39,180 bases of DNA from Candidatus Zixiibacteriota bacterium (lineage in GTDB: Bacteria > Zixibacteria > MSB-5A5 > JAABVY01 > JAHJOQ01), in assembly GCA_020053015.1 (NCBI GenBank), contig JAGVNY010000254.1, forward strand, positions 1-39,180, read 5' to 3'. Below, piece after piece: positions 2,770 through 39,180 of this stretch. The stretch's first letter is position 1; each line of letters begins with the position of its first letter. Both the position numbers and the translations under genes were made by a program. The notes beneath the pieces were generated by a model. The model was not told the DNA's origin. It was given only the letters and a program-made list of their open reading frames with translations, and ran no database searches.

Positions 2770-5700
2770 TCACTTGCAGAATTCGCATGGCGCGGGGCCA
2801 CCGCCGAATATAAAGTTGATCAGATAGACTATGTCATCAATGTCCACGAAGTCCGAGCAATCGACGTCCCCTGATTCCCACGATGGCATAGGTGCCGGAC
2901 CGCCGCTGAATATGTAATGAATCAGGTAGACGATATCATCTATGTCCACAGATCCGTCACCGCCTACATCACCGCATACGAACTGCTGGTAATCATCAGC
3001 CACATGTCCGAGAAACCAAGCCTTGGCCCTGTCCGCATAATCTCGCAATGTGATGATGCTCCCATTCCTAACCGTCATGAATGAGGTGAAGATATTCAGA
3101 GTGTCACCGGGCTGAATTGTGTAGTCATTGAAGTAAGTGAACACCGACGTGGCATCGGTCCAATAGGTGAGATAGGACCAATAACCAATTCGCATCTGGG
3201 CCAGAAGTTGCGAAGGGTCAAAACCACCGAGAGTCCACACATAGATGACATTGTCGAGAATCTGAGCAGCGTACGGGTACGACTGAGTGTTTATTGAGGA
3301 CTGGCCAGTCCTTATGTGGCCCAGCATCGCCATAGCAGCGAATCTTGACTCATTGGACTGACAGCCGCTCCCGTCATTCTCCCAACCCTGCTGGATGAGC
3401 ATGTGGCGTTCCTGATCAATGTCCGAATAGTTGTCCGAGTATCCGTCGTTCGGCACATCCCAGTCGACGGCCTGACCAATTGTAAGGCCAGAATGCGCCT
3501 GATCGTCGTTCGAGAAGACCCTAAGTTGTTGAATCATGAACTGGCAACTGTCAGCCCTCGTTGGGGCATACCAGATCACTTCCACTCCAAGCAGTGAGTC
3601 CTTCGTCACCATCGATCCGGTATTGTACACCTGATACTCGCTCGTTACGACAACCGGCACAGTCGGATTTCCCCTATCAACAAGCCGCAGAGTTTGAGTC
3701 CCATACATGGCGTGGCTCAACACCGTGTCCTGTCCAAAAACATACCCGATTATGGGCGACCCGTCAAAAGCATAGACTGTTGCCCCTGGATCACATTCGC
3801 CTGCGCCGATGTAGTCGAAATTGACTCGCCCCAGACCTCGCCGGCCGAAGTTGCCGAAGTTCGACACAATAAGGTCAAGGCAGGGCGTGGAAATCGTGTC
3901 GTAGTGCGCCGGCCTTGCATCACACAGATCACCAACGCCATCGCCGTCCCAGTCTGCCTGATCCGGATTGTAGGCGAAGGGGCAATTGTCATCGTCACAC
4001 GCTGGGTTCGTGAACTCAGGGTTTCCATAACCGTCGCCGTCGGTGTCAGTGCAGAGGTCACATGCATCGCCCAGGAAATCATTGTCATAGTCTTCCTGAC
4101 CGGCATTCGAGATCGCCGGGCAATTATCGCATGCGTCACCGATGCCATCGCCGTCTGAGTCAGTCAGGTCAGGACACGGCAAGGTCGTCTTAAACATCGA
4201 CCTGCCATGGGTTCCGGCCACGAGGGTTCTCGATTTTATGTCAAACGCAAGGTCGTGTATCGGAGTCGCAATCGAGATACCGGTTCCGAGGGGCTCCCAT
4301 GTGCCTCCAGTGTTGGTACTGCGATAGACACCGTAATCGGTTCCGACGTACAGGTGCGATGCGTCATGAAAGTCAACGACCACGTCGTTAATAGGCATAT
4401 CTGGAAGGTTGCTGCTGATATCGCTCCAATTCTGTCCGTAGTCTGTCGTTCTGAAGATGTGCGGAAGATAGTCCGACTCCCTGTAGCCCGAAAAAGTCAC
4501 ATAAGCAACAGCCGCATCGTACGGGTCCACGGTCACTCGTGTCACCCATCTTTCCGGAAGTGCGGCGTCGATTCTCGTCCAGCTCTGACCGGTGTTCGTC
4601 GTCACCCACACATTTGCGTCATCTGTACCAGCGTATATCACTTGACCATCACTGCGAGCTACGTCAATAGTTGATATCGTCCCGAGGTATGCTTGATCTC
4701 CGTCAGTGAGATCCCCGCTAATCACCGCCCAGTTGCCCGCCGCATTCGTCGTTCGATATACCCTTTGAGATCCGTAGTACAACACGTTGTGGTCAGCCGG
4801 ATCAATTGCGATTGGAGTGCTCCAGTTGTGCCGATCACCGTCGTAGTCAATGCCGGCAATGGAACTGCCAAAAGTCTGTCCGCCATCCACGGACTTGTTG
4901 AGAACTCCATATTGATACTCGGCATACACAACGTTTGGGTTCTTATAGTCGACAACGCAGTAAAACCCGTCGCCTCCGAGCACCTGCTCCCATCCCGATA
5001 TAGCACCATCGGCAGTGCGCATCGTGCCGTTGTCCTGAGTCCCTCCGAACAGCTTCATGGGCGTAAAAGGATCGATGGCGATCGCGTAGAATTGAGTGTT
5101 CGGCATCGACAGCAGGCGGGTCCACGAGTTCCCGCCGTTCGGAGTAAGGGCCATACCACCATCGCTGCCGTTATATACCCATAGAGGGTCGCCGGGAGCG
5201 ATGAACAGCGCATGATGGTCAACGTGCAAATCGTTGTCGGCTTTGGACCACGAGCTGCCACCATTAGTGCTCCTGTACATTTCCACGCCAAGAGCGTACA
5301 CAATATTGGGATTTCCAGGCGCAACCCGCACCTGGCTGAAGTACCATCCACCATTCCAAGAACCGTAGAGTCCGCTGATCCCGCTGTCGTTAGTGCGAGT
5401 CCACGTAGTCCCAAGGTCAGTGCTCTTGTAGACGCCCTGAAACACGCCGCCGCCATTGGAGTAGATTGCGTACACTGTGCTCGATGACGGATCGATGCTC
5501 ACTCCGATTCTACCTAAGTTGGCACTTGGTTGCGGCAATCCCCCGCCAAGATATTGCCACGTGTCGCCGAAATCGGTAGATCTGTACAAACCGCTGGACA
5601 TGCCTTGGAACTGGTGGCGATCCATGTATCGCACCTTCTCCCACATGGCTGCAATCACGGTGCCTGAGGACGGATGATAAGCGATATCAACACATGATGT

Positions 5701-6486
5701 CGAATCCGAGACGAAGAGCTTTTGCTCCCATGAGCTGCCACCATCGGTCGATCGGTACACGCCGCGTTCGGGATTCGTTCCGCTGAAGTGCTTGCCTCCT
5801 GCGGCCACGAACACGGTCTCCGGCCGAAGAGCATCAATTACGATTCTGCCGATGTGATAGCTGTACGGCAGCCCGAGATACGACCATGACTGCCCGCCGT
5901 CAGTCGTCTTGTAGACCCCGGTGCCTTCGTAATTGTCTGAAGCTGCATTGGCTTCTCCCGTTCCGGCGTATAAGACGTTGGGATCTGTCGGATGCATCGC
6001 AACCGCACCCATAGACTGCGGTCCCTCTCCGTCAAACACCGGTTCCCACGGACTACCATACTGATTGAGCTTCAAGATTCCGCCAGCCGCCGAGGCAACG
6101 TACACGGGCGGCATGCCTGATGAGCCAACCGCGATATCAGTGATGCGGCCGGGGATGTTGTCCGGGCCGGCGACTGCCCAATTCACGTCAGCCGTTCCAT
6201 TCTCCGAGTAGCTGTCCTGCATCTCCTTCACTGCCTTGGCGGCCGCGATTCTTCGCTCTACGGGAATGTCGCCCTGCGGAAACGCACGTTGAGCGTAGAA
6301 CCAATCGTTAGGGCGCTGCTTAGCCTTGGGGACCTTACCGTTTCGTTTCATCGTGAACATAAGATTCTCGGAATCGACGTCACGACTGGATGCAACGGGC
6401 TCACCCGTCCTTATGGAATAGAAATATGCGGCAAGAAACGTGGAGCTGATTACAAAAGCTCCGATCAGTATCACGTGCTTCTTCAT
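2770..6486 (-). CDS. Secreted BNR/sialidase-like (VPS10/Xcc1710-type) beta-propeller protein with thrombospondin-3 repeats and C-terminal dockerin-like module
   Basis: ORF 2770..6564; preferred start [22 protein letters not shown] (signal peptide) at 6486. Many 'YKSTDGGxSW' repeats, '[15 protein letters not shown]' TSP3 repeats, C-term '[29 protein letters not shown]...[25 protein letters not shown]'. Confidence 0.88.
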
Positions 6487-6803
6487 GGCGGTTACCTCGC
6501 GGCTTGATTGGCCCTGGCGCTTACAGCCAGATTTCGTACGAAATCTCCTCGCCGCAAATGACACTCACGAAATCACGCGACGAGTTTGATCATTGAATGC
6601 AGTCAATAGTTAATATCGCCGCGAAGGCATGAAATGTCAACCGTGAAAACGTGCTTCGGGGCGCCTGGCTAAGCACAAAGACGATTAAACGACTCGCCGC
6701 ACACTCGCATTTAGATGCCTTGGCGATGCGCCAGCTCGACCGTCAAGCCTTCTGGACTCAGCTACTATCAGGAGTGCGAATGCCATAGTCATTGTTGTGA
6801 ACA

Positions 6804-13048: not shown

Positions 13049-15739
13049 TCAAAACGGACAGACATGGACTGGGGCGGGGCCGCCCCCAAACACGTAGTTG
13101 ATCAGGTAGACAATATCGTCGATGTCTACTGGCGGGTCGCCTTGGCTCCCATTCGCGTCTCCGCAGCAAAGATCACCGACCGGCGACGGTCCCCCACCGA
13201 ACACGTAGTTGATTAGATACACGATATCGTCAATGTCAACTGCAGGATCGCCACCGCTGCCGTTCGCGTCACCAGGGATGCAGTCGAAATGATACCCTTT
13301 GACTTTGGCGATAGCGCCTGTACCAAGCGATACTTCCAGAATATGGAGCCCCGGAGGTCCCGAGATTTGCAGAAAATCGCCTTCCGGCCAGACATCTGAT
13401 TCGTCGATTTGGACCGCAGCACCCCATGCATTGATGGCCTCATCTCCTTGGCTATACTCAATCGTATCGCTACAGTTGAAGAAGACGGAATCGTAGGTCT
13501 TGCCACAGTACGAGACTGACAAAGGCTCGATGTAGCAAGAATCGCTGACGACGGTTATGTCAGGCGTGTTGTTTGGATCATCCAGCATTTGCTGCCAGGT
13601 GGAATCTGCAAAAGCCGCATTCCCAGTTGAGGGACAGTCACCCATAGTGCAAACCGGGTCGTAGTCAAGAACAAGTCTTCTGTAGCCGTGATCGCTCACA
13701 AAAAGGATCACTTGCTCGTTGGGCGTGGCCATGACGGAGTCCTGAATGTCTCTCAGCGCTCTTTCTAATCCGGAACCACTTGCCCAATAGTCGAACCCGT
13801 CGACGGGGCCCTTTGCGCAGACAGTGTAGAAATGAGTCCTATATGCGCCCTCGAAGTTGTCCCTGATGGTATTGATGTAGCCGACGTCCGAGAACTGATG
13901 AAGCGAGTCTGAGTCGGGAACGCCTGCATAGAAGATGATATGCCTCCCTTTGATCGGACCTGTGGGACTCGTCGGTTCCAGTGAGAACACTCCACCCTGT
14001 TTGCATGGTGCTTCAAACGGGAATGCACCAGCTGATGCGCGGGAATGGAGGCTGTCCGAGTTCCAGCCTTCCCCCGGACGAAGGAACTCCGCAGCATCGT
14101 CGTCGTAACCCCCATATTCGGAAGTCTGATCCGGAGAGGTCGCGGACAGTACTACGGTGTTTGGCCGGTCAATGAAATTCTCCATCATATCCCCACCATA
14201 GCACTGCGTGAACACGATGAGAGCACCGTCGATGATACTCGTCGGAAGATAGTGATCGAACATGAGACGAAGTCGAGTATCACTAATAGACGGCCAGTAG
14301 TGGGTGGTGTCAGTAACAACTTTGAAACAGATCAGTGAACCACCGATTTCCGTCTTGGCTCCGGGTCGGGTTTGTTCCACGTACGCTCTACCGCTGACGG
14401 ATTCGCCGCCGATGGTACCCTCTACGGAACAGGCACCTTCCCAGAAGACGGCTCCCGGAAAGACACTTGATAGCAGTGACCGCATGACTTGGTCTGGGAA
14501 ATCGGCTGTCACAACGAGGTCGATGTCGCGAGAATTCTGCAGAATATGCCACTTGGTTTCAAAGGTCGAATTGCTCTCAGGGTCGAGCCACCATTCGAGG
14601 ACTATCACCGTGTCCTGCAACAGGTCCAAAGAGCAGTCTTGATTGTAAAGGTTCATTCCACCCGTGAAGCTCCCGCTCCCCTTAGCCACTCCGTCTACCC
14701 AGACATCTCCAGTCATGATCTCACGACCGTCATCCAACTGCAGAGCGAACCATCTCCAGTTCACTTTCTTTGTGATCCCCATGAAATCTCCCCATTGATG
14801 GTCAAACCAAGCCTCCCCTTCAACGTACTCCTTGATTCCATGCGCTTCAATCACACCGGTGACTTTCATTCGTGGAAAGCTGTAGTAGTACGTGGAGTCT
14901 TCTCCGATTGGGATTCTCCCATCTCCTCCAACTAACATGGGTGCTTTGGTGGCCTGCATATACACATCAAGGGCAATCTTCTGGCCATCCTGATCGGCAG
15001 TCGCATCAACATTCAAGCGTTGCAGGAATGGATTCAGCGGCGCCCCTCCGCATTGATAGGCGTTCCACCATAGGTCGTTGTCCAGTATCTGATCTTCGTA
15101 GACGATGTCCAATTCGTCGCTACTGGCCGTCATAATGGCAGACAGTTTAGCTCCTGAATAATACTGTTTGGAGACTAGATCAGATATTGCGAACAAGCGC
15201 ATCGGGCCATCTTTGAAGAACGCAACAAACGCACCGTACTCCTTGCCAGTTGTCTGTCCAATGAGATGGAAGTTGGCGTACCACCATTCAACTGGGAATT
15301 GACTTAGCGGCTCATGTCTGCCATCATCGTTGGGAAAACGGATCGAGGTTCCGGGCGGGTACCAAGGGTAACCGTCACACCAGCCAGTTCCGCAGGAATC
15401 GGGGTCTAGGTACTTTGTCGGAACTTCAACATTCTCGAGTGAACCCACACAGATGGTATCTTCCATTTCCACTCCAAAGCACGGCTTGAAGAACTTCACA
15501 TGGTAGCAGCACCCCAGGCAACCGATAGGGGAGATTTCCCAGTAACCGGAAGCGTTAGTGGTTGTCTCATGGCACGTTGTAACCAGTCCGTACTTGATGA
15601 CCTGCACTTGGATCCCGGAATGGTCAGTTTGCCCCTGTAAGTAGGCATGTCCGTATATGCTCCATGCGCGGGCCGAAGTGGTGGCGAGTAAGCCCGCAAG
15701 CACAAGTGTAACGAAGAATATCACTCTCGAGCGTAACAT
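13049..15739 (-). CDS. Secreted multidomain protein: N-terminal beta-sandwich, CrtC/AttH lipocalin-like domain, clan CD (C13/caspase-like) peptidase-like region, dockerin-like C-terminus
   Basis: Start MLRSRVIFFVTLVLAGLLATTSARAW at 15739 with RBS aaggaaggg. 'QFPVEWWYANFHLIGQTTGKEYGAFVAFFKDG' (CrtC/AttH-like), 'ALIVFTQCYGGDMM' and 'VILFVSDHGYRRLV' (clan CD-like), '[32 protein letters not shown]' twice. Confidence 0.75.
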   Translation of the reverse strand: MLRSRVIFFVTLVLAGLLATTSARAWSIYGHAYLQGQTDHSGIQVQVIKYGLVTTCHETTTNASGYWEISPIGCLGCCYHVKFFKPCFGVEMEDTICVGSLENVEVPTKYLDPDSCGTGWCDGYPWYPPGTSIRFPNDDGRHEPLSQFPVEWWYANFHLIGQTTGKEYGAFVAFFKDGPMRLFAISDLVSKQYYSGAKLSAIMTASSDELDIVYEDQILDNDLWWNAYQCGGAPLNPFLQRLNVDATADQDGQKIALDVYMQATKAPMLVGGDGRIPIGEDSTYYYSFPRMKVTGVIEAHGIKEYVEGEAWFDHQWGDFMGITKKVNWRWFALQLDDGREIMTGDVWVDGVAKGSGSFTGGMNLYNQDCSLDLLQDTVIVLEWWLDPESNSTFETKWHILQNSRDIDLVVTADFPDQVMRSLLSSVFPGAVFWEGACSVEGTIGGESVSGRAYVEQTRPGAKTEIGGSLICFKVVTDTTHYWPSISDTRLRLMFDHYLPTSIIDGALIVFTQCYGGDMMENFIDRPNTVVLSATSPDQTSEYGGYDDDAAEFLRPGEGWNSDSLHSRASAGAFPFEAPCKQGGVFSLEPTSPTGPIKGRHIIFYAGVPDSDSLHQFSDVGYINTIRDNFEGAYRTHFYTVCAKGPVDGFDYWASGSGLERALRDIQDSVMATPNEQVILFVSDHGYRRLVLDYDPVCTMGDCPSTGNAAFADSTWQQMLDDPNNTPDITVVSDSCYIEPLSVSYCGKTYDSVFFNCSDTIEYSQGDEAINAWGAAVQIDESDVWPEGDFLQISGPPGLHILEVSLGTGAIAKVKGYHFDCIPGDANGSGGDPAVDIDDIVYLINYVFGGGPSPVGDLCCGDANGSQGDPPVDIDDIVYLINYVFGGGPAPVHVCPF

Positions 15740-16057
15740 ATTCCCTTCCTTCCTCTGGTCATTTCTGCGGAGACCCTCTCCGCGATTTCTATTGTGCGCT
15801 CGTCCGTATCCCGTCCGGGCTCGCGCACGGTCTCCAATGTCCCTGATGCTTCTCCCGCGGAGGTTGAAGGACATGGCCAACCCCCGCATACCTCGTCTGA
15901 ATCCCATAGCGCCTCCGATTCATGGGTTGGACCGCTCCGATGATCTCTCTCCGCCGTATAGGTTTTGCCAATCCATGATTCCTTACAGGCGAGTGCGAAG
16001 AATTCTAAGGTTTCTAAAGACAATTCATCCGTACTTCACTTTTCGTGGACTATGGAG

Positions 16058-16086
16058 TTGACATTTCGGCAGGTTGTGCGTATTAT
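16058..16086 (+). promoter_or_regulatory. Sigma-70-like promoter for the ECF/anti-sigma/CHAT operon
   Basis: TTGACA-17 bp-TATTAT, immediately upstream of the preferred ATG at 16111. Confidence 0.6.
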
Positions 16087-16110
16087 GGTCAGGCCAGGTC
16101 AAATAACTCA

Positions 16111-16653
16111 ATGGACTCTATGGAACAACTTCTGGAACGGGCGATTGCTGGCGATGAAATCGCCGAACAAGAGATATTTGGTCATTTGCTTGTAAGGTTT
16201 GTGCTTCTCGCAAAACGAAGAGTACGAGACAAAGAGGGGGCTCAGGACATTGCACAAGATGCATGTCTGACCATCCATGAGAAGTACAAAGCTGAGATCT
16301 TCGAGGTCAGCTTTGAGGCTTGGGCTTACGGTGTCTTGAGAATGAAGATCGGAAACTGGCTTCGGAAGCGGAAAGCGCGAAGCGCGTGCGAGGCTCTTGG
16401 CGACTGCCCAGTCACGCAACGGCAAACTGAGAAGTGTGAAGTGGATCAGGAGCTCAAGAGACAGCTGCTCGCGTGCCTGAAGAAAGTCCTCGCTGCGAAT
16501 CCCAGGTACGCTCGTGCGTTGAACCTAGTCCACCATGGCTACAAGAGCGAAGAAGTTTGCCTGAAACTCCAAGTCACTAAGGGCAACTTCTACGTTATTC
16601 TCAGCAGAGGCAGGTCCATGCTCAGAGCATGTCTTGGGGACGGAGATCTGTAG
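16111..16653 (+). CDS. RNA polymerase ECF-type sigma factor
   Basis: 'MDSMEQLLERAIAGDEIAEQEIFGHLLVRFVLLAKRRVRDKEGAQDIAQDACLTIHEKY...FEAWAYGVLRMKIGNWLRKRK' region 2; HTH-like region 4. Confidence 0.82.
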   Translation: MDSMEQLLERAIAGDEIAEQEIFGHLLVRFVLLAKRRVRDKEGAQDIAQDACLTIHEKYKAEIFEVSFEAWAYGVLRMKIGNWLRKRKARSACEALGDCPVTQRQTEKCEVDQELKRQLLACLKKVLAANPRYARALNLVHHGYKSEEVCLKLQVTKGNFYVILSRGRSMLRACLGDGDL

Positions 16654-16656
16654 ATA

Positions 16657-17349
16657 ATGTCGAAGTGCATCGAGCCTCAAGTCGGGAAGTTGCTCCACGC
16701 TTACGAGTTGAACGCGCTGTCCCCGCAGGAAACCGAACTTTTCGAGATACATCTCGTCAAGTGCGAGCATTGCTTCGAAGAGATCAAGCGATTTGAGCAG
16801 GAAATCGAGCTGCTGATGGGTGACGATGATGTCAAGAAGACGGTCGCCGAATCCGCGGAAGGACAGGAGGCTCTGAGATCGGAGCAGGGCACGTTGATCC
16901 GTTTGCTCAGGCCCAAGAGGTTCCCGCACATCAGAACTGTGGCAGCAGCCGCCGTGCTGCTTGCATTAGTGCTAATCGCGTCACCTCATTTCTTAACATA
17001 CGTGACACGGGACGATTCCGGAGGCGGTGCACAGACTGTGAGTCTTGTGGCTAACCGAAGCGAAGCCAACGAAGTCAGGCTTGAGTCGGGTGTAAAGGGA
17101 ATCGTTTTTGAGTTTCTGTGCGAAGGTGCGATTCCAGGACAGACGCATCACTTTGAGATACGATCCATTCCAGACGGCACACTGGACCCGATTTATCCGC
17201 ACGGCAGCTTAGACAGCAGTGGGACTGCCCGTGTCGAGGTCCAAGCTTCAGATTTGAAACCCGGTTTTTATGTGCTTACGACGTCCAAGAGCGCATCCGA
17301 TTCATCCGCAGTGTGTGGGCCATTCTACTTCAGAGTGCGTCCAGACTAA
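16657..17349 (+). CDS. Anti-sigma factor-like protein, zf-HC2 domain, one TM
   Basis: 'LFEIHLVKCEHCFEEIKRFEQEIELL' (HxxxCxxC), TM 'TVAAAAVLLALVLIASPHFL', extracytoplasmic C-terminal domain; follows the sigma gene by 3 bp. Confidence 0.75.
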   Translation: MSKCIEPQVGKLLHAYELNALSPQETELFEIHLVKCEHCFEEIKRFEQEIELLMGDDDVKKTVAESAEGQEALRSEQGTLIRLLRPKRFPHIRTVAAAAVLLALVLIASPHFLTYVTRDDSGGGAQTVSLVANRSEANEVRLESGVKGIVFEFLCEGAIPGQTHHFEIRSIPDGTLDPIYPHGSLDSSGTARVEVQASDLKPGFYVLTTSKSASDSSAVCGPFYFRVRPD

Positions 17350-17398: not shown

Positions 17399-20300
17399 AT
17401 GACATCAGCACGCAAAGTGGCACTGGCTGTTCTGATCGCTTCATTCTTGGGGTCGGCGTTCTTCGTGTTTGGCGGTCTTTCAGTCGTCAGCGATACAGGT
17501 GATTCGAATCAGGTCATTGCCACTGTTCCGGATCTGCTGGCTATTGCATACTCCCTCGCGCAGCGAGGTGAGTGCGATTCCGCAATGAGTCTTTCGGACT
17601 CAGCAACGAACATCGCCAGGGCAAACCATCGCGACGGTGACACTCTCTGTGTGATAGCGCTTCTTCGGCACATGTGGGTTGCTGACAAGTGCGGCCGTCG
17701 TGGAGCAGGTGACAGCTTGATGTATGAGGCTATTGCTTTAGCGGAACACGACTCATCGATTCCCTGCGGTCTTCTTACCAAGACTCTCTTGGCCGCTGCA
17801 GGGCACTATCGTGGCCCTGCAAGATTCGCGGATGCCAAGCAACGCAGCCTTCTACTCGCAAATGCCGAGCGGTACTACGACCGTGCGCTGAGAAAAGCCG
17901 TGGAGTGTTCCGGCGAGGAGAGCTTCGACGTTTTCGGAGTCCTGAGTGAACTCGTTTCGTTCTATGGTTACTCTGCGAATGACCTCGCCAGGCGAGACTC
18001 CGCTCTGAATCGAATGGTGAATATCGGCAGAAGGGCCGACCGACTCGCTCCGGCTGAAGCGTTCAGCGTGTACTTTGACATTGGCTATCTGATGAAGCTC
18101 CTCAGCCGATATTCCGAGGCTGAATCTTACCTGCTTAAAGCGGCTGGCTATCTCGATAGCAGCTCTGCAATACCTCTGGAGAGGCAGGTTTCCAGCCTAA
18201 GCGAACTTGGATTTGTTCTGGAAGTGCAAGGGAAGTACGACGAGGCGGAGGAGTATCTAATACGTGCGAGAGGATTGGCTTTAGACTCCACTGTGCAGAA
18301 CACGACTACTTATGCAATCCTGCTCAAGAACTTGGGCAATCTTCATCTGATCCAAGGCAAGTACGCGGAAGCTGAAGAGGACTACTTGCGCTCGGCCAAG
18401 GTTAGGTATAGCATCAACACTAAAGACCCCAATATCGCCGAAGCACTGAACAATCTTGGCGAACTATACTCGCTGCTGCAGAGATATTCGGAAGCGGAGG
18501 GGTGCTACAAGGAGGCCATCGGGTTTCGGGAAAATCATTATGGCGTGGATTATCCAGATCTCTATCATCACTTGCGGGGGTTGGGTCGAATCTACATAGC
18601 CCAAGGACGATACGCTGATGCCGACACAGTCCTGTTCCGCTGCCTCAGGATATGCAGGCAATCACTCGGTTCTGATCATGTGCACACGGCGCTGACAGAG
18701 CAGACTTTCGGCGATTACTATCGAGCTGTCGGCATGTACGGTAGCGCAGAACGTTCCTATCTAGATGCCCTTGAAGTCGAGAAGAAGCGCTTAGGAAGCG
18801 GTCACTGGGAGACAGGAGAGACGCTTTACAGACTTGGGCTGTTGTATGAGTCCATGGGGAAACACTCGAAAGCATTGAGTTGTTTCCGTGACCTGATACA
18901 AGGCCGCCACAGGTTCATTGCGGACGTGTTTTCATACGCATCGGAGGAACAGAGGCTGCGGTATATTGACCAATATCCGGTGCTTCTGGACCCAATCTTC
19001 TCGTTTGCACTCAAAGATTCCATCTCCGATTCGCGGAAACTTGCCCTTGAGATGCTTGTCAGCGGCAAGGCGGTTGTGACAGATGCTGTCGTCGCTGACA
19101 GAAGAATCATGTGCTGCTCTGACACCGGGGAAGCTCGCGCTCAAAGGGATACTTTATCTCGCATCTGTGACGAGATATCGAGGCTCACTGTGATCGGTCC
19201 TGCCGGTTTGGCGTTGGAGAAACACCAACGGATGCTCGATTCACTGCTAAAAGCAAAAGACTCTGTCGAGGAGAAGATCAGCGCTTACTGCAGCAGATTC
19301 GCTGTCGACAGAAGAGTCCAGCGTTCCGGGTCGTCTGAGATTGCTGACCGCATTCCCAGAGATGCAGTCCTTTGGGAGTATGGAGTGTATAGGCCGTATG
19401 ATTTTGCGACGGTTGGAAACGATACTGAAAGGACGGGTAAGCCAAGATACCTTGCATTCGCGCTTGATTCCGACGGTCATGTTGACCTCAGAGACCTGGG
19501 TGACGCTGAGAAGATTGACAGCTTGGTTCTCATGAGCAGAGATATCATCTATGAATCAGGCAAGGCGATTGACGTCGCTTCAAGGCGCTTGTCGGAGAAA
19601 AGTCTGAGTCGAGTTACTTCCGAGCTATATCGGCTGGTGTCTCAACCTTTAGAAAGCACGCTTTGCGGTAAAGCCAACATCATCGTCTCCCCTGACGGCC
19701 AGTTGAATCTCATTCCGTTCGAGATTATGCGGACTACGGATGGGCGATACGCTGTTGAGAGATATAGCTTCAGCTATCTTACTACGGCGAGGGATCTTTT
19801 GGATCCACAGCAGGTAACTAATTCAACTGCGAATACTATGATAATCGCTGATCCTGATTTCGGGAAGATCACCGACAAGCAGGCACAAATCGAAGAAAAG
19901 GGTTCGATCCTATGTGGCGCCTGGCCGTTTATGGAGCTTTCGTCTACGCGAGCTGAGGCGAATTCAATCGGCAAGTTGCTCAGGGACAAAGGGGAACTTG
20001 TGGTTAACGAGTACTACGGAGATGCTGCTGAAGAGGGAATCTTAAAGGCACTCACTGAAGCGCCACGAATCGTGCACATCGCAACCCACGGATACTTCTG
20101 TGGTGGCGCCGAGACCAACTCCTTGCCAGTTGCGCGGAATCCTCTCTTGAAGACAGGCCTGGCTTTTGCAGGCGCGAATTACGTAGTCGGTCAAGATGTG
20201 TCAGAGGATCCCTTTGACCCTGACGATGGTATCCTTACGGGACTTGAAGTTTCTAACCTGGATTTGTTTGGTACGGAGCTGGTTGTCCTGTCCGCTTGCG

Positions 20301-20620
20301 AGACGGGCATCGGTGATATCCGAAATGGCGAGGGTGTCTTCGGATTGAGACGAGCGTTCCGACATGCCGGTGTGAGGAACATGCTCGCAAGCCTATGGAG
20401 AGTGCCGGACGCACAAACATCGGACATCATGAAAGGCTTCTATCGGAAGTGGCTGAGCGGATCGACGAAGAATGCGGCGTTCAGAGAGGCTGTGCTCGAT
20501 CTAATCGCTGATCATCATGCGAAATACGACAGTGTAGCGCTCCCGTATTACTGGGGCGGATTTGTGCTGATCGGTAACCCAGATCCTTTGAACAGAGACA
20601 CCGCAGCCATTCCCCGTTAG
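17399..20620 (+). CDS. TPR-repeat CHAT-domain protein (putative exported/membrane-anchored clan CD peptidase)
   Basis: N-terminal hydrophobic segment; TPRs ('LGNLHLIQGKYAEAEEDYLRSAKV...'); CHAT 'RIVHIATHGYFCG' and 'ELVVLSACETGIGDIRNGEGVFGLRRAFRHAGVRNMLASLWRVPD'. Confidence 0.92.
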   Translation: MTSARKVALAVLIASFLGSAFFVFGGLSVVSDTGDSNQVIATVPDLLAIAYSLAQRGECDSAMSLSDSATNIARANHRDGDTLCVIALLRHMWVADKCGRRGAGDSLMYEAIALAEHDSSIPCGLLTKTLLAAAGHYRGPARFADAKQRSLLLANAERYYDRALRKAVECSGEESFDVFGVLSELVSFYGYSANDLARRDSALNRMVNIGRRADRLAPAEAFSVYFDIGYLMKLLSRYSEAESYLLKAAGYLDSSSAIPLERQVSSLSELGFVLEVQGKYDEAEEYLIRARGLALDSTVQNTTTYAILLKNLGNLHLIQGKYAEAEEDYLRSAKVRYSINTKDPNIAEALNNLGELYSLLQRYSEAEGCYKEAIGFRENHYGVDYPDLYHHLRGLGRIYIAQGRYADADTVLFRCLRICRQSLGSDHVHTALTEQTFGDYYRAVGMYGSAERSYLDALEVEKKRLGSGHWETGETLYRLGLLYESMGKHSKALSCFRDLIQGRHRFIADVFSYASEEQRLRYIDQYPVLLDPIFSFALKDSISDSRKLALEMLVSGKAVVTDAVVADRRIMCCSDTGEARAQRDTLSRICDEISRLTVIGPAGLALEKHQRMLDSLLKAKDSVEEKISAYCSRFAVDRRVQRSGSSEIADRIPRDAVLWEYGVYRPYDFATVGNDTERTGKPRYLAFALDSDGHVDLRDLGDAEKIDSLVLMSRDIIYESGKAIDVASRRLSEKSLSRVTSELYRLVSQPLESTLCGKANIIVSPDGQLNLIPFEIMRTTDGRYAVERYSFSYLTTARDLLDPQQVTNSTANTMIIADPDFGKITDKQAQIEEKGSILCGAWPFMELSSTRAEANSIGKLLRDKGELVVNEYYGDAAEEGILKALTEAPRIVHIATHGYFCGGAETNSLPVARNPLLKTGLAFAGANYVVGQDVSEDPFDPDDGILTGLEVSNLDLFGTELVVLSACETGIGDIRNGEGVFGLRRAFRHAGVRNMLASLWRVPDAQTSDIMKGFYRKWLSGSTKNAAFREAVLDLIADHHAKYDSVALPYYWGGFVLIGNPDPLNRDTAAIPR

Positions 20621-21000
20621 TCGCTGGACCATCCCCGATCAACGAATCTCCAATCTCTTCAAACCGCAGCTTGTTTCCCATCGATATGGTTGCGGGAGCT
20701 CGCCTTATAGCAGCGCTCTGGCCGACTGATTTCGTCCGTTTTCTGTTATCCGTGGATAACTGGCCGCATCTTGCTTGACCCCATCGATAATTGCCGTATA
20801 TTGCAGTTGAACCCACCGGGGCACCAGGTAGAAGCATGCCTGATCAAGGCCCGTCAGAGGTTGCTGCTGATGACAATGATTCTCACTTGATGCACCCTGC
20901 CGTCTGTTGGACGGACATGCTCCGACCAATTGGTCGAAATGAAACATTCGCAGTATCACGATTGTCCAGATCGAGGTTGCACCTACCGGAGGAATCTGCC

Positions 21001-23622
21001 ATGAACAAACGCGTAGTCCTGATTGCCATGTTCCTGCTTGTGTGTGCCGCGGGGATATCACAAGCCGATGATCTCTACAAAGCATCAGTAACATCCCGAA
21101 GGGACGCTGAACTGCTGAATTCAATCGGAGCAGATCCTCTGCTGAGAATCAGAGATGGCTACCTCTTGCTTCTGAAAGGCGATCAGCCACAGGTTATCAG
21201 CTCGGCAGGTGTGACAATCGAGCACGTCGCCACCGACGTGGATCGGCGATCTGTCGCTATCGATGTCACCCGTGATCGTTCAAATGCTCGCTTATTCCCC
21301 GTTGTCTATCAAGAGGAGGGCGTCGTACTACTCCGAGTCACTCCAGACGATCTCCGTACCGACGGCAGAGTCTCCGGCCTTGCTCCGGTTCTGACAAGCC
21401 ATCTGAAGATCGTATACAGGGAACCGTTGAGCGTCGGCAAGTCATTCCCGTCGCGCTCAGTCGACCTCGACTCAATCATGAGTCTGATCCGAACAGACTC
21501 GCTTCAGTCGTATGTCACCCGGTTGCAGGCCTTTCCTCCTCGCGTGACCGGGAGCACATCAGATCACTCGTCGCGTGACTGGCTCGTCAGCAAGTTCCAG
21601 CAATTCGGCTATGATTCTGTCGTTCTCGATTCGTTCAACTACGGATCCACGCCGTGTCAGAACATCGTGGCATACAAAGTCGGATCGGCCTTTCCGGATC
21701 ACCACATTGTCATTGGTGCGCACAAGGACGCTGTGTCCGGTTCTCCCGGCGCTGATGACAACGCTTCCGGCACTGCAGGCGTACTTGAAATCGCTCGGAT
21801 CCTCAAGGACATTGAAACCGAGATGACGTTTGTGTTTGTGCTCTTCAATGCGGAGGAACAGGGTCTTTACGGTTCGTGGCACTATGCCGATGAAGCGGCG
21901 ACACGTGGCGACAGCATCGTGTTCATGCTCAATCTGGACATGATCGGAGCCGAAGACAACTATTTGGATGCGACCGTGTACCACGGTACTGATCTCACCT
22001 ACGCAAACTTCTGGAACGATGTCGCCGATTCGCTGCTGAACGTGACTGGTCATCTGAGCGGCACATCGCAATACTCCGACCACTATCCGTTTCAGCAAAA
22101 CGGATACGACGTCGTGTTTATCATCGAATACGAATTCTCTTCGGTCTACCACAGCTCTCACGACAGCACGAGCTATATGGACTTCAATTACATGACGCGA
22201 ATTGTCAAGGCCTCGGCCGCGACTGCATTCATGGTTGACGGATGGTACATTCCGAATCCGGGACTCGTATTCACGTATCCGTCCGGCGTGCCAGAGACAG
22301 TGCTTCCGGGCGTCCCCACTGAATTCCAGGTGCAAATCACCGGCGCGTCTGGAGGAGTCCCGGTTGAAGGAAGCGGAAAACTGCACAGTTCCGTCGGCGG
22401 GGGGCTTTGGTCAACCACCGACATGACTTATCTCGGGAGCAACCTATACGAAGCAACCCTTCCGGCTGCGACCTGTGATGACGGTTCGATCAGTTTCTAT
22501 GTCAGCGCTGAGGAAGCGCAGGGAGGCGAATTCTCCAATCCATCGCCACTCGATCCGTTTGAGACGTTCGTGGCTACTTCGATTGAGGTTGCCTTCAGTG
22601 ACAACTTTGAAACGAATAAGGGCTGGAGCGTTTCGGGAGGACTGTGGGCGAGAGGAGTGCCTACCGGTGGTGGGGGCTCCCACGGCAGCCCCGACCCTGC
22701 AGGAGGTCACAATTCTCTCAATGTCTTTGGATACAATCTTAGCGGTGATTATGAGGACAATCTACCCGAGCGTCACCTGACGAGCCCCGCGATCAATTGC
22801 AGCGGTCTTTCGGGCGTCAAGCTGGATTTCTGGCGCTGGCTGGGAGTGGAACAACCCGATTACGATCACGCCTATGTGCGAGTCAGCAATAACGGCACTA
22901 CATGGTCAACGATCTGGCAGAATACGGCCGAAGTCGCCGACGCCGCATGGCAGGAGATGGAGTTCGATATCTCATCGATTGCGGACAATCAGCCGACGGT
23001 CTACGTGCGATTCACGATGGGCGAAACCGACGGGTCCTGGACATACTGCGGCTGGAACATCGATGATCTCGAAGTCAAAGCTTACGTCTGCGAGGAACTG
23101 ACAGATTCGGACAGCGACGGTATCGCTGATCTCTCCGACAATTGCCCGCTGATCTACAATCCGAATCAGGAAGACGCTGATGGCGACGATGTAGGCGATG
23201 TCTGCGACAACTGCACAGATACGGACAACGATGGATTCGGGAATCCGGGCTTCCCAGCGAGCACTTGTGCTCTCGATAACTGCCCGCTGAAGTCGAATCC
23301 GCTTCAGCAGGACTTCGACTCCGACGCCATCGGTGATTCGTGCGATAACTGTATCTATGTCGCGAATGCTGATCAGACTGACTCCGATCAGGACGGCGTC
23401 GGCGATGTCTGTGAATGGATCTGCGGCGACGCCGATTCGAGCGGATTCATCGATATTGACGATGTAGTATTCCTCATTATCTATTCATTCGCCGGTGGTC
23501 CGCCTCCCGTCCCATTTGAGGCTGGCAATGTTGACTGCTTAGGAATTGTCGATATCGACGACGTAGTCTATCTGATAAACTACATCTTCGCCAACGGCCC
23601 TGTGCCATGCGCGGGATGCTGA
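21001..23622 (+). CDS. Secreted M28-family metallopeptidase with TSP3 repeats and dockerin-like C-terminus
   Basis: [22 protein letters not shown] signal peptide; '[35 protein letters not shown]...[18 protein letters not shown]' zinc-binding motifs; C-term '[29 protein letters not shown]...[21 protein letters not shown]'. Confidence 0.92.
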
Positions 23623-27149: not shown

Positions 27150-29519
27150 GTGTTCGCAGCAATTGTCAACGGCATCATAAAGGGACGAATCGCGATCATC
27201 ATCGTGGTTCTTGCGCTCACCGTCGTGCTCGGCTATCACATCCAATTCATCAAATTCGACTCGTCGTCGGATGGCAGCATTCCGAAAGGCGATCCAAGCG
27301 CAGAGTATTTCGAGCAGGTCAAGAGCGATTTCGGCAACGATCAGGTTGCCATGCTCGTGGTGATCTCGGATGCCGAGCTTGGCATATTCGAGCCCTCTAC
27401 TCTTGCCAAGATCAAGCGACTAACAGATTCTATCGGCGATTTCGCAGGTGTGGACAATGTCGTCAGCCTCACCAATTCCCGCTTCTTAACAGGCGCAGGA
27501 GGCGAGCGTCTCGCCAACGATCCGATTATACCGGTACTGCCCGAGACAGTCGACAGCGCGATAGCAGTACGAGCACGAGTTCTCAAGAACAAGCTATTTC
27601 ACAAAACGCTCGTCTCTCCCGACGGCAAGGCCGCCGCGATCAACATATTTCTGTCGAATCTGCCCGACAGCACGCTTCAGTCTACCGGCGTCGATCGCAG
27701 AATCAACGAGATTGTCGAGAGTGAATCTGGACCGGAGAAGCTGTTGTATGCGGGTCTGATCCACACGCGCATGGAGATCAACAAAACCATGCATCGCGAT
27801 CTCAAGACATTCATTCCGATATCGTTTCTGCTGATAGTCGTGATACTGATTCTGTCGTTCAGGAACCTCGCAGGCGTCCTTCTTCCGGCTATCACGATCA
27901 TGATCTCTGTGACATGGACATTCGGTCTGATCGGCTTCTTCGGAGTTCCGATAAACATGACCATGACTATAATCCCGCCACTGCTTATCGCGATCACATG
28001 CGCCTACGCGATATATGTCGTTTCCGGTTTCTATGATCGTTCCCGCACGGAGATGGATTCAAAGAAGGTCGTAAGGGACACACTGCTGTTCATGGCTGCG
28101 CCCTTCGTTTCCTGCGTGATCACTGATCAGATCGGCTTCAGCTCGAACATCGTAAGCTCAATCCCGAACAACCAGAAGGCCGCCGTGTGGTGCACGATCG
28201 GAGTCGCGCTCTCGATGGCGCTTTGTCTCTCCTTTGTGCCCGCGATGCTGACTTTCGTCAAAGCTAAACACAAGAAGGCTGCCTCTGACCCGGATGAAAG
28301 CGAACACGGGCACGGAAGCGACTTCATGTCAAGATTGGTCGAGAGGATCATTCATTTCGATACAAAGCACCCGGTGATCATCTTCTCCGTTGCCGGATTG
28401 GTGCTTCTGCTGTCGTTGATCGGGATGTTCAGAATCCAGGTCAACACGGACTTCCTCTCCTACTTCAAGAAGGACTCGGAGATTCGCAAGACAGCCGATA
28501 TCATCGGCCAGAAGCTCGCCGGTGTTTCGACCTTTTACGTCATTGCCGAATCCGACTCAGCCGACATACTGCGCGACGCCGAAGTTCTTCAGCGAATCGA
28601 CAGTATCCAGAAATACATGGAGAGCCTGCCAGGGATCGACAAGACAAGTTCAATGGTGAACATACTGAAAGTCTTCCATCAGGCGATGAATAGCGATAAT
28701 CCCGACTCCCACATCGTAACGTCTTCGCAGGAGGCTCTCGACGAGGCAATCCTGCTCACGATAGATCAGGAAGATCCGGCGGTACGCGCGCATTACGTCG
28801 TGGAAGACTATAGCTCCATGGCGATATTCGTGAGATCGCAACTCGTGTCGACCAGCGAGCTCGCCAAAACCATCGAGAAGATTGAGCAATATGCGAGTGG
28901 CGTGCTGCCGAAGGAGATTGCGGCGAAAGCAACCGGCACAGTTGTGGTATTCGCCAAGTCAATATCTTCGATCATCAGCTCCCAAGTGAATTCCCTGATT
29001 CTTTCGGTGAGCCTGGTGTTCCTTATCATGGCCTATCTCTTCCGGTCGGTCAAGGTCGGTCTCATAACTCTGCTTCCCAACGTTCTACCGATCCTGACGA
29101 TCTTTGGATTGATGGGCTTCGTCGGCATAACTCTGAACATGGGGACAAGCATGGTCGCCTCGATCGCGCTTGGCATCGCTGTGGATGACACTATCCATTT
29201 ATTCGCGACTTTCCGCGACTTGTTAGCTCGCGGGATGGATCGCCAAGAGGCAGCAGTCGAAGCCGCAAGGCATTGCGGCAAACCGGTGATCTACACAAGC
29301 GTGGCGATGAGCCTGGGATTCCTGGTGCTGTGCCTCTCTGATTTCGGCATGCTCAGCTCGGTCGGATTCCTCGCCGGTGTCACTATGCTTGTCTGCGTTG
29401 CCTCTGATCTCTTCATGTCCGTTGCAATCATAACGAGATTCGACCTCTCCAAAAACCCTCGGCGAAAGCCTGCTGCAAGGAATTTGCCGACCGAGGCATC
29501 GCAATCCGGCGCCGCGTGA
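27150..29519 (+). CDS. RND/MMPL superfamily exporter
   Basis: 789 aa, two repeats each with a large periplasmic loop and TM bundle; 'GITLNMGTSMVASIALGIAVDDTIHLFATFRD' typical of the MMPL/hopanoid RND family. Confidence 0.9.
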   Translation: MFAAIVNGIIKGRIAIIIVVLALTVVLGYHIQFIKFDSSSDGSIPKGDPSAEYFEQVKSDFGNDQVAMLVVISDAELGIFEPSTLAKIKRLTDSIGDFAGVDNVVSLTNSRFLTGAGGERLANDPIIPVLPETVDSAIAVRARVLKNKLFHKTLVSPDGKAAAINIFLSNLPDSTLQSTGVDRRINEIVESESGPEKLLYAGLIHTRMEINKTMHRDLKTFIPISFLLIVVILILSFRNLAGVLLPAITIMISVTWTFGLIGFFGVPINMTMTIIPPLLIAITCAYAIYVVSGFYDRSRTEMDSKKVVRDTLLFMAAPFVSCVITDQIGFSSNIVSSIPNNQKAAVWCTIGVALSMALCLSFVPAMLTFVKAKHKKAASDPDESEHGHGSDFMSRLVERIIHFDTKHPVIIFSVAGLVLLLSLIGMFRIQVNTDFLSYFKKDSEIRKTADIIGQKLAGVSTFYVIAESDSADILRDAEVLQRIDSIQKYMESLPGIDKTSSMVNILKVFHQAMNSDNPDSHIVTSSQEALDEAILLTIDQEDPAVRAHYVVEDYSSMAIFVRSQLVSTSELAKTIEKIEQYASGVLPKEIAAKATGTVVVFAKSISSIISSQVNSLILSVSLVFLIMAYLFRSVKVGLITLLPNVLPILTIFGLMGFVGITLNMGTSMVASIALGIAVDDTIHLFATFRDLLARGMDRQEAAVEAARHCGKPVIYTSVAMSLGFLVLCLSDFGMLSSVGFLAGVTMLVCVASDLFMSVAIITRFDLSKNPRRKPAARNLPTEASQSGAA

Positions 29520-29603
29520 GCGCCTCGCACACCGGCTCGGAGGAGCTTCCTGACACAGAATTGCAAATCGAAACAACCGACATCGTCGTTAGAGCAACTA
29601 TCA

Positions 29604-29632
29604 TTGGACAATTGCGCTTTTCCAACTATATT
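29604..29632 (+). promoter_or_regulatory. Sigma-70-like promoter
   Basis: TTGGAC-17 bp-TATATT upstream of the HesB-like gene. Confidence 0.5.
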
Positions 29633-29686
29633 TACCTCGATTATTGCCGCCTGGTGGCGATAAGAAAATTGAGAGGTGTTATAAAG

Positions 29687-30025
29687 ATGTTCTTAGTTAC
29701 AGACAGCGCGAGAACGAAGCTCGCAGAGATACTCAGCTCCGAGCAGGCAAAGAGTAAGAACCTGATCCTCTATTTTGCGGGCGCGGGCTGAAGCGGCCCG
29801 CAGATCGGAATGGCTCTGGATGAGTCAACGGATGGTCTCGAGAAACTCGATTCAAACGGGATCACAGCCTACATCGATCCCGCGCTGAGCAAAGAACTCT
29901 CCAAGCTCGGCGACATACAGGTCGATTACATTATCAATGAATTCGGACAAAGCGGCTACACGGTTCGAGTTGGCGAACCAGGAACAGGTTGTGCGGGCTG
30001 CAGCTGCGAAGGCAGTCCGTCCTGA
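29687..30025 (+). CDS. HesB/IscA-like selenoprotein (in-frame UGA at 29789..29791 read as Sec)
   Basis: ORFs 29516..29791 and 29810..30025 lie in the same frame. Fused protein: MFLVTDSARTKLAEILSSEQAKSKNLILYFAGAG-U-SGPQIGMALDESTDGLEKLDSNGITAYIDPALSKELSKLGDIQVDYIINEFGQSGYTVRVGEPGTGCAGCSCEGSPS, a HesB/IscA-like fold with Sec where a Cys is expected. SECIS-like hairpin immediately downstream. Confidence 0.85.
29801..29818 (+). promoter_or_regulatory. Candidate bacterial SECIS element
   Basis: CAGA-U-C-GGAAUG-G-C-UCUG: short stem with apical loop starting GG about 16 nt after the UGA, matching the bacterial SECIS spacing and G-in-loop pattern. Confidence 0.65.
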
Positions 30026-36127: not shown

Positions 36128-38362
36128 TCACCGGCACTCAGCACACGGCTCTGGTCCTCCCGAGAAGATGAAATTGATCAGGTAGACCACGTCATCAATG
36201 TCAACTGGTACATCGCCACCACTGCAGTCCACATCGCCTGACTCAAGCGGAACCGGATCGGGACCGGACGCGAAGATGTAGTTAATCAGATAAACCACGT
36301 CGTCAATGTCCACTGCTGGATCGCCACCGCTGGCATCGGCATCACCGCATGTGTACTGCGGGTCGCACGCATCTCCCTTCCCGTCTTCGTCCGTATCTTC
36401 CTGACCTGGATTGGGCACTAAGATGCAATTGTCGCACGAATCGCCCAGAACATCGCCGTCACTGTCTTCCTGAGCAGGATTGGCACTAGACGCGCAGTTG
36501 TCGCATGCATCGCCTAAGCCGTCTCCATCAACGTCGCTCTGCGTCGGGTTGAACGCCAATGGGCAGTTGTCTAACGGGCAGTCGTTCTCGGGATGACCGG
36601 GATCGCCATAGTTGTCGCCGTCCTGATCGACGCACTGGTAATCGCCGAACGACCAGATTTGCGAGTACTCGGTTGAATCGCCGGACGCTCGAAATGCCTT
36701 CACGCGCCAGAAATAGGCGTTGCTGTCAAGAGCAACCGGTGGGACGAAGTTGTTGTCAGTGAGACCGGCATACACACGATACGTTGACGTGAAATTCGGG
36801 TCGTCGCTGATCTCCAACCTGTACGAGTCCTCGTCTTCGTGCCAGCATGTAGACCACGTGAACGTCGGCATCGGATCGAAATCGGGATCGCCATCCGCTG
36901 GCGTATATAGCCTCGGCTTCATAAACGGCATCAGAAATCGGGTTGCATATGCATCCTGTGTGCCGTCGCGTGTATCAGTCCAGATAGCGCTGATGGTGTC
37001 ATGCTTCGCATGAACGCCAATGTACTCGGCAAGCAATCCGGCCAGCGGCTTGCGCGCCGGTTGCTGAGTGATGTCAAGCGTGCCATTGGGCAAGCGAATA
37101 TCGGACGGAATACCCGGTCGAAAGACAAACGCATCCGAAGGATCACTTGAGACTTCTGATATCCGCATGTTCGTCGTAAACGTTTCAGCTCCGTCGAAAG
37201 AGGCGGCGAAGTACGAATCGAATTTCCAATGCGCTGGGTCATTGCGCTGGTCGTAGAAGATCACCAGCACCACACCATCCTCATTCACGAAAAGCCACGG
37301 GTGGAACTGGTCAACGTTCATCCCGGGCTCGTCATCATTGACAACCAGCCGATCTGACCATGTAATGCCTTTGTCGGTTGATACGCGAACGGTCACGTCT
37401 GTCTCAACAAGCTCATCGGATGAGAATTGGCACTGTGATATGTACATGCGGTTCCTGTAAGGCCCGGACGTTATGTCACAGTCGCCGTTCGGCATCCCAT
37501 AGACATTGACACCTCCGTCGACGTAGTCATAACCCAAGTTGTTCGTGAACGCCTTAGCCGGAATGGAAAACGTCTGTCCACCGTTGATCGAGAAATTGTG
37601 CATGATCGCAAGCTCAAATGTGCAATCAAACGGGTCAATCACGTTATATCCTTGCCAGAAGACATGGACGCCTCCGTCGGCATCTACGATCGGAATCGAG
37701 AACTGTCCGGCATCCACGGTGCCACAAGATTCGAAGACACCGGGAGGCCCGACAGTGATCGTGTCGTCGAACGAAGCTGTCCCGTCGGTCGACCGGACGA
37801 ACAGGATGCGCGTGGGGCCGTTGTAGAACCGCGTCCATGAGCAGTAGTAGTTTCCGTCGTATGGCCCCGCAGTCCTGTCGACAGCCGTGAACTGCTTGTC
37901 TTCAAACGTTCCATTCAGCCAGACACAGGTGTTGACCTGAGGCAGCCACGAAACGCCGTTGTCAGTCGACTTGCGAACCACGACGTAGCTCTGTCCGGGG
38001 GAGTTGGGATTGTAGCTGAGCATGTTTGCATAGAAATTGCCGAATCTGTCTCCCGTGAGGCATGGATCGGACTGCTGGTAGCCAACCGGAGATGCGGTGA
38101 AAAGGGAGTCACTCCAAGTCATACCCCCGTCCGTGGATACACCTATGCCAAGCCTGCGATAACCGAGCCTCCAATCGCGCCAGTCTGCGATAACAATCGA
38201 GGCATCGAGCGGGCTAATCCAAATCTGCTCCTCATTCTGCAGAAACTGTGTGACGTCAGAGTTCACCTTGACATTGGGCGGTGTCGCCTGCGCTGATCCT
38301 GCGCTCAGCAGGATCCAAGCGACAATCGCAGCCGCGATGCTGGTAGCGTGTTTCCAATACAT
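36128..38362 (-). CDS. Secreted BNR/exo-sialidase-like protein with TSP3 repeats and dockerin-like C-terminus
   Basis: Start [26 protein letters not shown] at 38362. '[15 protein letters not shown]', '[13 protein letters not shown]', TSP3 repeats, '[61 protein letters not shown]'. Confidence 0.88.
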
Positions 38363-38621
38363 TCCGATCCTCCCGATCTGTTCGTGGCACGATTCGATAG
38401 GCAGAACACTATTGACTATTGCGAGAACGACAACGAAGACGTCCTCAGGTGTATCTACGGATGAGAACGCAAAATGTTCAACATAACCGGTGGGTATCTG
38501 GAGCCAAAACGCGTGGGACCGCAGCTTCCAAATCGAGTCGCGGAATTCGAAAGAGCATGGAATTGAGAAGCAGCCTCTCAAGCGAAGGCGATACCGCACA
38601 AAATCGGGTGCTTCGCTCAGC

Positions 38622-39180
38622 CTATGTGCAATCAGTGCACGGTTCCGGCCCGCTGGCGAAAACGTAATTGATCAAGTAGACCACGTCATCGATGTCAATC
38701 GGCACAGAACCTCCGCTGCAGTCAGCATCGCCAGCCTCGATCGGAACCGGTGCCGGCCCGCCTGCGAATACGAAGGTTATGAGAAAGACAATGTCGTCGA
38801 TGTCAACGAAGCCACTTCCATCGGCATCGCCACAGAGCATACAGCACGATTTGCCGCGCAACTCGACTACCAGCGGGTTCAGTGCCGACGAATCGCTGTG
38901 GTACACGAGAGCAGTGTCCAGCATGTCCACTGCCGACAGCGATTTCCAGGCAATCAGTAACGAATCAGTCCGCGCCGGACCCCACTGGTGTGGAAGCGCT
39001 GTAAGCGCAGTCAGATTCTCCGGAGGATGGCACACGAAAACGACACTGTCGATCGTCACGTTGCCGTATCCTTCTTTCGCAAGTCGAATTGCCGAAGTGT
39101 CGGTTTCTCCCACTCCGATCGAGTCGAATTGCACGGTGCTTTCAATCATAAATATTGCGGGAGCCGTGAACAGAGGCAAA
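38622..39180 (-). CDS. C-terminal part of a dockerin-tailed secreted protein (N-terminus beyond the window)
   Basis: Ig/HYDIN-like '[30 protein letters not shown]' followed by '[31 protein letters not shown]...[27 protein letters not shown]'; frame open to the right edge. Confidence 0.8.

Follow-up and report, generated by a model that had tools for sequence, protein, structure and literature searches.

The question raised by this locus is whether a TGA codon within an otherwise continuous frame ends a gene or is read as an amino acid. In the window, by which we mean the whole stretch of 39,180 nucleotides of a Candidatus Zixiibacteriota contig that was analysed, open reading frames listed under table 11 include two separate ORFs (29516-29791 and 29810-30025), i.e., the two fragments that the preliminary description had predicted for automatic annotation and had itself joined into one HesB/IscA-like protein. 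This joining was confirmed: from the ATG to the terminal stop, and through the in-frame TGA, the sequence translates as MFLVTDSARTKLAEILSSEQAKSKNLILYFAGAG-U-SGPQIGMALDESTDG...GCAGCSCEGSPS, preceded by a ribosome-binding-site-like stretch and by the promoter described earlier, here a sigma-70-like consensus match (Table 1). We consider that the TGA is almost certainly read as selenocysteine (Sec), and that the gene very probably encodes a HesB-like selenoprotein with an A-type carrier fold, in which SelB recruited by a downstream hairpin would allow the UGA to be decoded as Sec in place of the first cluster cysteine (probability of about 0.95). The computational observations comprise the conserved read-through frame, the Sec-decoding machinery, the hairpin and the exchange between Sec and Cys; from the sequence we infer the biochemical role, in which the protein would resemble an A-type Fe-S carrier whose first cluster-ligand position is occupied by Sec.

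Table 1. Features of the selenoprotein locus, in window coordinates.
Feature	Position	Strand	Description
HesB/IscA-like selenoprotein gene	29687..30025	+	112 residues, Sec at residue 35; ATG 29687, terminal stop TGA 30023-30025
In-frame TGA, almost certainly read as selenocysteine	29789..29791	+	TGA in 75/75 distinct Sec-type homologues; Cys in the 4 strong TGA-less ones
SECIS-like hairpin	29811..29827	+	stem 29811-29816 with 29822-29827, 6 bp; loop UGGAU 29817-29821
Ribosome-binding-site-like stretch TGAGAGGT with GAGAGG	29669..29676	+	10 nt ahead of ATG 29687; sequence reading only
Sigma-70-like promoter match TGGACA-16-TATATT	29605..29632	+	consensus match only
C-terminal Cys-rich tail (CAGCSC)	29990..30009	+	sequence and alignment; presumed extra metal or Fe-S ligands

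Matches to the joined protein were obtained in 21 of 39 genomes (its own included), with the TGA present in 20 of these 21, and across the phylum 133 searched genomes gave 84 strong matches (at least 70 bits; phylum counts taken by hand from the match table), 80 of which carry an in-frame TGA. When 75 distinct Sec-type sequences, including one from Anaerobacillus (Bacillota), were read codon by codon, the aligned codon was always TGA and never TAA or TAG, and the terminal stops were mixed (31 TGA, 23 TAG, 21 TAA). On either side of the TGA, pN was well below pS (0.04/0.49 upstream and 0.02/0.38 downstream for the pair L021-L022), which points to purifying selection acting on both parts of the gene. 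An in-frame stop in a single draft metagenome-assembled genome (3.1 Mb, 88% complete, 263 contigs) is a common artefact, and the TGA could be taken for a true premature stop in a decayed or misassembled gene. However, the same codon recurs in distinct sequences from independent assemblies, with purifying selection persisting downstream, and because of this conservation and of the selection on both sides a pseudogene or a sequencing error, the latter raised as a concern in the preliminary description, is excluded as vanishingly unlikely. Nor do homologues terminate at this position, as had also been considered: they run past it with either TGA or Cys. Separately, in the genomes of families f3 and f10 (G024, G031, G130-G132, G015, G029) the IscA-type homologues are all weak (22-34 bits) and lack the TGA, and the seleno-HesB gene seems to be absent or lost in these lineages, though some have selB over its cut-off.

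The bacterial Sec-decoding trait is complete in this genome, all four components for which a check had been suggested being found: selB (295 bits, over cut-off) adjoins selA on contig C86, ~2 kb past selA this contig also carries a tRNA-Sec with anticodon UCA (selC; 74.2 bits), and selD lies on a different contig. Neither selB nor selC, whose absence would have spoken against a selenoprotein, is thus missing, and selB is also over cut-off in 34 of the 39 relatives. A UGA decoded as something other than Sec (i.e., as tryptophan, through general read-through or under a reassigned code) would have to be reconciled with this full machinery and its tRNA-Sec(UCA). Plain read-through would equally join both frames, but TGA is the normal terminator of the same gene in 31 of the 75 homologues and the residue that replaces it in TGA-less homologues is Cys, which makes such decoding extremely unlikely. 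As a side observation, selD (L048:205-2529, G000:C108) shares a single 774-residue frame with a NifS/IscS-like cysteine desulfurase, to which it is fused on the C-terminal side, and selenium delivery and selenophosphate synthesis thus appear to be combined in one protein; fusions of the cysteine desulfurase-selD type are known from other organisms.

Downstream of the TGA, a SECIS-like hairpin (UGGCUC-UGGAU-GAGUCA in the window) is common to all 75 Sec-type sequences. The preliminary description had placed such a hairpin about 16 nt after the UGA and given it a loop starting with GG; the presence of a hairpin was borne out, but in the conserved one the stem starts 19 nt and the loop 25 nt after the UGA, and this loop begins U-G-G. 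A nearer candidate (CAGAUC-GGAAUG-GCUCUG) was rejected on account of its weak fold (-2.4 kcal/mol) and of a 5' arm that varies freely across relatives. The folding energy of the hairpin region is not below that of shuffled sequences (z = 0.21), and because energy fails to separate it from shuffles we relied on covariation and synonymous constraint. Across the 75 distinct sequences, the four pairs closest to the loop are intact without exception and the next one out is intact in 74, and in a 34-sequence alignment three pairs have changed on both sides (G-U to U-A, C-G to U-A and U-A to C-G), with a covariation score reached by none of 500 shuffles; this covariation is real but thin, each double change occurring in one sequence only. 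The stronger signal comes from synonymous sites: Leu codon 9 is CTG in 74 of 75 sequences and Glu codon 11 is GAG in 73 of 74 (vs. 31% of Leu codons and likewise 31% for GAG elsewhere in these genes), and T occupies the wobble position of codon 8 in 74 of 75 despite a residue varying between A, T, V and S. Judged by conservation, the read-through gene and its hairpin go beyond chance.

The geometry of this hairpin also fits the published bSECIS model, as anticipated. The model describes a loop of 3-9 nt, a stem of 4-16 bp, a G among the first two nucleotides of the loop and a distance of 16-37 nt from the UGA (PMC13188914), for which the observed values are 5 nt (UGGAU), 6 bp, a G at loop position 2 and 25 nt. 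Its energy criterion is a minimum free energy of -7.5 kcal/mol or lower (PMC13188914), and the folding energy obtained here varies with the stretch folded (-6.5 kcal/mol when the 17-mer is folded, -7.3 once flanks are added, and -9.3 and -11.5 for stretches of 39 and 48 nt, respectively). No Rfam family matched the SECIS region.

The most probable course of events is that the hairpin recruits SelB carrying Sec-tRNA(UCA), which would bring it to UGA 29789 for Sec to be inserted. As a rule, insertion of Sec is in competition with termination, and some truncated product is consequently likely; the locus might even yield two products in regulated proportions, a truncated peptide of 34 residues and the full-length protein, with the UGA serving as a selenium-sensing switch. 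Neither a separate ribosome-binding site nor a conserved domain was seen for a stand-alone C-terminal fragment, however, and 27 of the 75 homologues have TTG or CTG where the window has its internal ATG (29810), so that we regard a two-product gene as very unlikely.

A natural control for Sec insertion as the function of the hairpin is provided by the 4 of 84 strong homologues that lack the TGA, all of which carry Cys at the Sec position. In G108 the Cys copy directly adjoins a Sec copy (L068 / L081, G108:C9:54714-55432), the same arrangement is found in G087 (L083) and G088 (L082), and in G089 (L084) the two copies are ~5.3 kb apart. In the tree, which is based on few columns and should be read with care, the Cys copies fall at two places within the Sec clade, each beside Sec copies (support 100/88 and 94/91), suggesting that separate tandem or near-tandem duplications gave rise to them at least twice. 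The hairpin is lost in all four Cys copies, as expected if it serves UGA decoding rather than the protein, and the retention of the hairpin in Sec copies with its loss in Cys duplicates constitutes a clean natural experiment. A change from Sec to Cys has been called rare in bacteria and documented mainly for FdhA and SelD (PMC13188914), alongside a HesB-like case from Desulfitobacterium hafniense for which a SECIS-like structure has been shown (PMC1794560). The present Sec/Cys pairs make this question testable.

HesB-like proteins are, as the preliminary description stated, a recognised selenoprotein family (PMC1794560, PMC13188914, PMC11097638), which has been in the literature for some two decades (PMC1088965, PMC1794560). 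The top NCBIfam match of the joined protein is IscA_HesB_Se (NF038090, 6e-15), followed by ErpA, TIGR00049 and HesB_rel_seleno (TIGR01911), and all 22 aligned relatives match both NF038090 and TIGR01911 at E <= 1e-3. The window protein shares with this family the Sec in UxGP at the IscA cluster-Cys position, the HesB/IscA fold and co-occurrence with the Sec-decoding trait, but differs in its Cys-rich C-terminal tail, the composition of which varies, and in scoring under both curated cut-offs (55.4 bits vs. 85 for NF038090, 34.7 vs. 66.35 for TIGR01911), as it does for Pfam Fe-S_biosyn (22.5 vs. 26.3). These cut-offs are annotation thresholds and no biological property; by NCBI's rule, such scores make the protein a divergent branch of the known HesB-like kind, and because the curated models score it under threshold, automatic annotation would split or miss the gene. 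The best E-value obtained for any of the 22 relatives suggests that the remaining aligned Zixiibacteriota members likewise fall under the NF038090 and TIGR01911 cut-offs. The UxGP motif, listed for HesB-like selenoproteins (PMC13188914), reads U-S-G-P in the window protein and is present in all 75 distinct homologues, although it was also the search pattern, and the Anaerobacillus homologue (L045) shares both GUGGPQIGMALDE and the same hairpin with the window gene. An AlphaFold model (22 relatives in the alignment, pLDDT 83) is most similar in Foldseek to IscA, SufA, ErpA-type HI1723 and DsrR structures, which supports a predicted HesB/IscA (A-type carrier) fold. No published report of a HesB-like selenoprotein in Zixiibacteriota was found in the literature searched, a limited search in which absence is no proof. 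What is new here is a divergent branch conserved across Zixiibacteriota, the HesB-like selenoprotein family itself being already known, and this functionally uncharacterised family is extended to most searched Zixiibacteriota.

As for function, Sec35 (motif GAG-U-SGP) would stand where the IscA/HesB cluster-binding set has its conserved first cysteine, and the protein may act as a carrier in Fe-S, metal or selenium handling, with the selenolate and the C-terminal cysteines as its binding site. It has in common with the A-type Fe-S carriers IscA, SufA and ErpA the fold and one conserved Cys position, occupied by Sec in the window protein; it differs from them in this Sec, in the GPxxGMALDE that follows and in that no isc/suf operon was found around the gene. 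The Fe-S carrier role is uncertain because the number of cysteines in the C-terminal tail differs between relatives in the alignment. It is quite possible, if somewhat short of an even chance, that the selenoprotein is no Fe-S carrier and that Sec and the Cys-rich tail form a site for thiol/selenol redox chemistry or for metal or selenium binding. Such a role would accord with the variable tail and with the lack of a conserved isc/suf neighbourhood among the flanks searched, and also with the HesB-like selenoprotein of Methanococcus maripaludis, which is without known function and whose mutant still fixed nitrogen (PMC11097638); the predicted A-type carrier fold and the location of Sec at the canonical cluster-ligating Cys position point the other way. 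The M. maripaludis protein resembles that of the window in being HesB-like with Sec, demonstrated there by mutagenesis and 75Se labelling (according to the citing statement in PMC11097638) and read here from sequence, but its host is archaeal, with SECIS elements of another type (PMC13188914). A further, rather doubtful proposal is that Sec dominates a HesB branch spanning the phylum, being near-invariant there, and that Cys occurs only in extra tandem or near-tandem SECIS-less copies. If true, this would suggest a function truly dependent on selenium, e.g., selenium handling or a selenolate-ligated cluster, with the Sec/Cys pairs serving as a back-up linked to selenium availability.

No conserved operon was found around the selenoprotein gene in the flanks of relatives (most only 1.5-5 kb), and the downstream enoyl-CoA hydratase and kinase are shared only by the f1 relative G002 (L019/L056). 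A cysteine desulfurase gene of family TIGR01977 (24082-25281, + strand; 442 bits, over cut-off), with the selenocysteine lyase SclA as second match, precedes the selenoprotein gene by ~4.4 kb; no match to it was obtained in the flanks examined for relatives. Elsewhere in the window, several genes encode large, probably exported proteins (2770-6564, 13049-15907, 36128-38599 and 38622-39179 on the - strand, 20791-23622 on the + strand), with similarity to sortilin/BNR, CrtC-lipocalin and M28 peptidase proteins, which have in common C-terminal dockerin-like repeats, some with thrombospondin-3 repeats; these dockerin-like repeats are a C-terminal module common in this genome. Finally, the gene at 17399-20620 (+ strand) encodes a protein with TPR repeats and, at its C-terminus, a CHAT (caspase-like) protease domain; it is preceded, at 16045-17349, by what seems to be a gene for an ECF-like sigma factor and by a putative anti-sigma gene.
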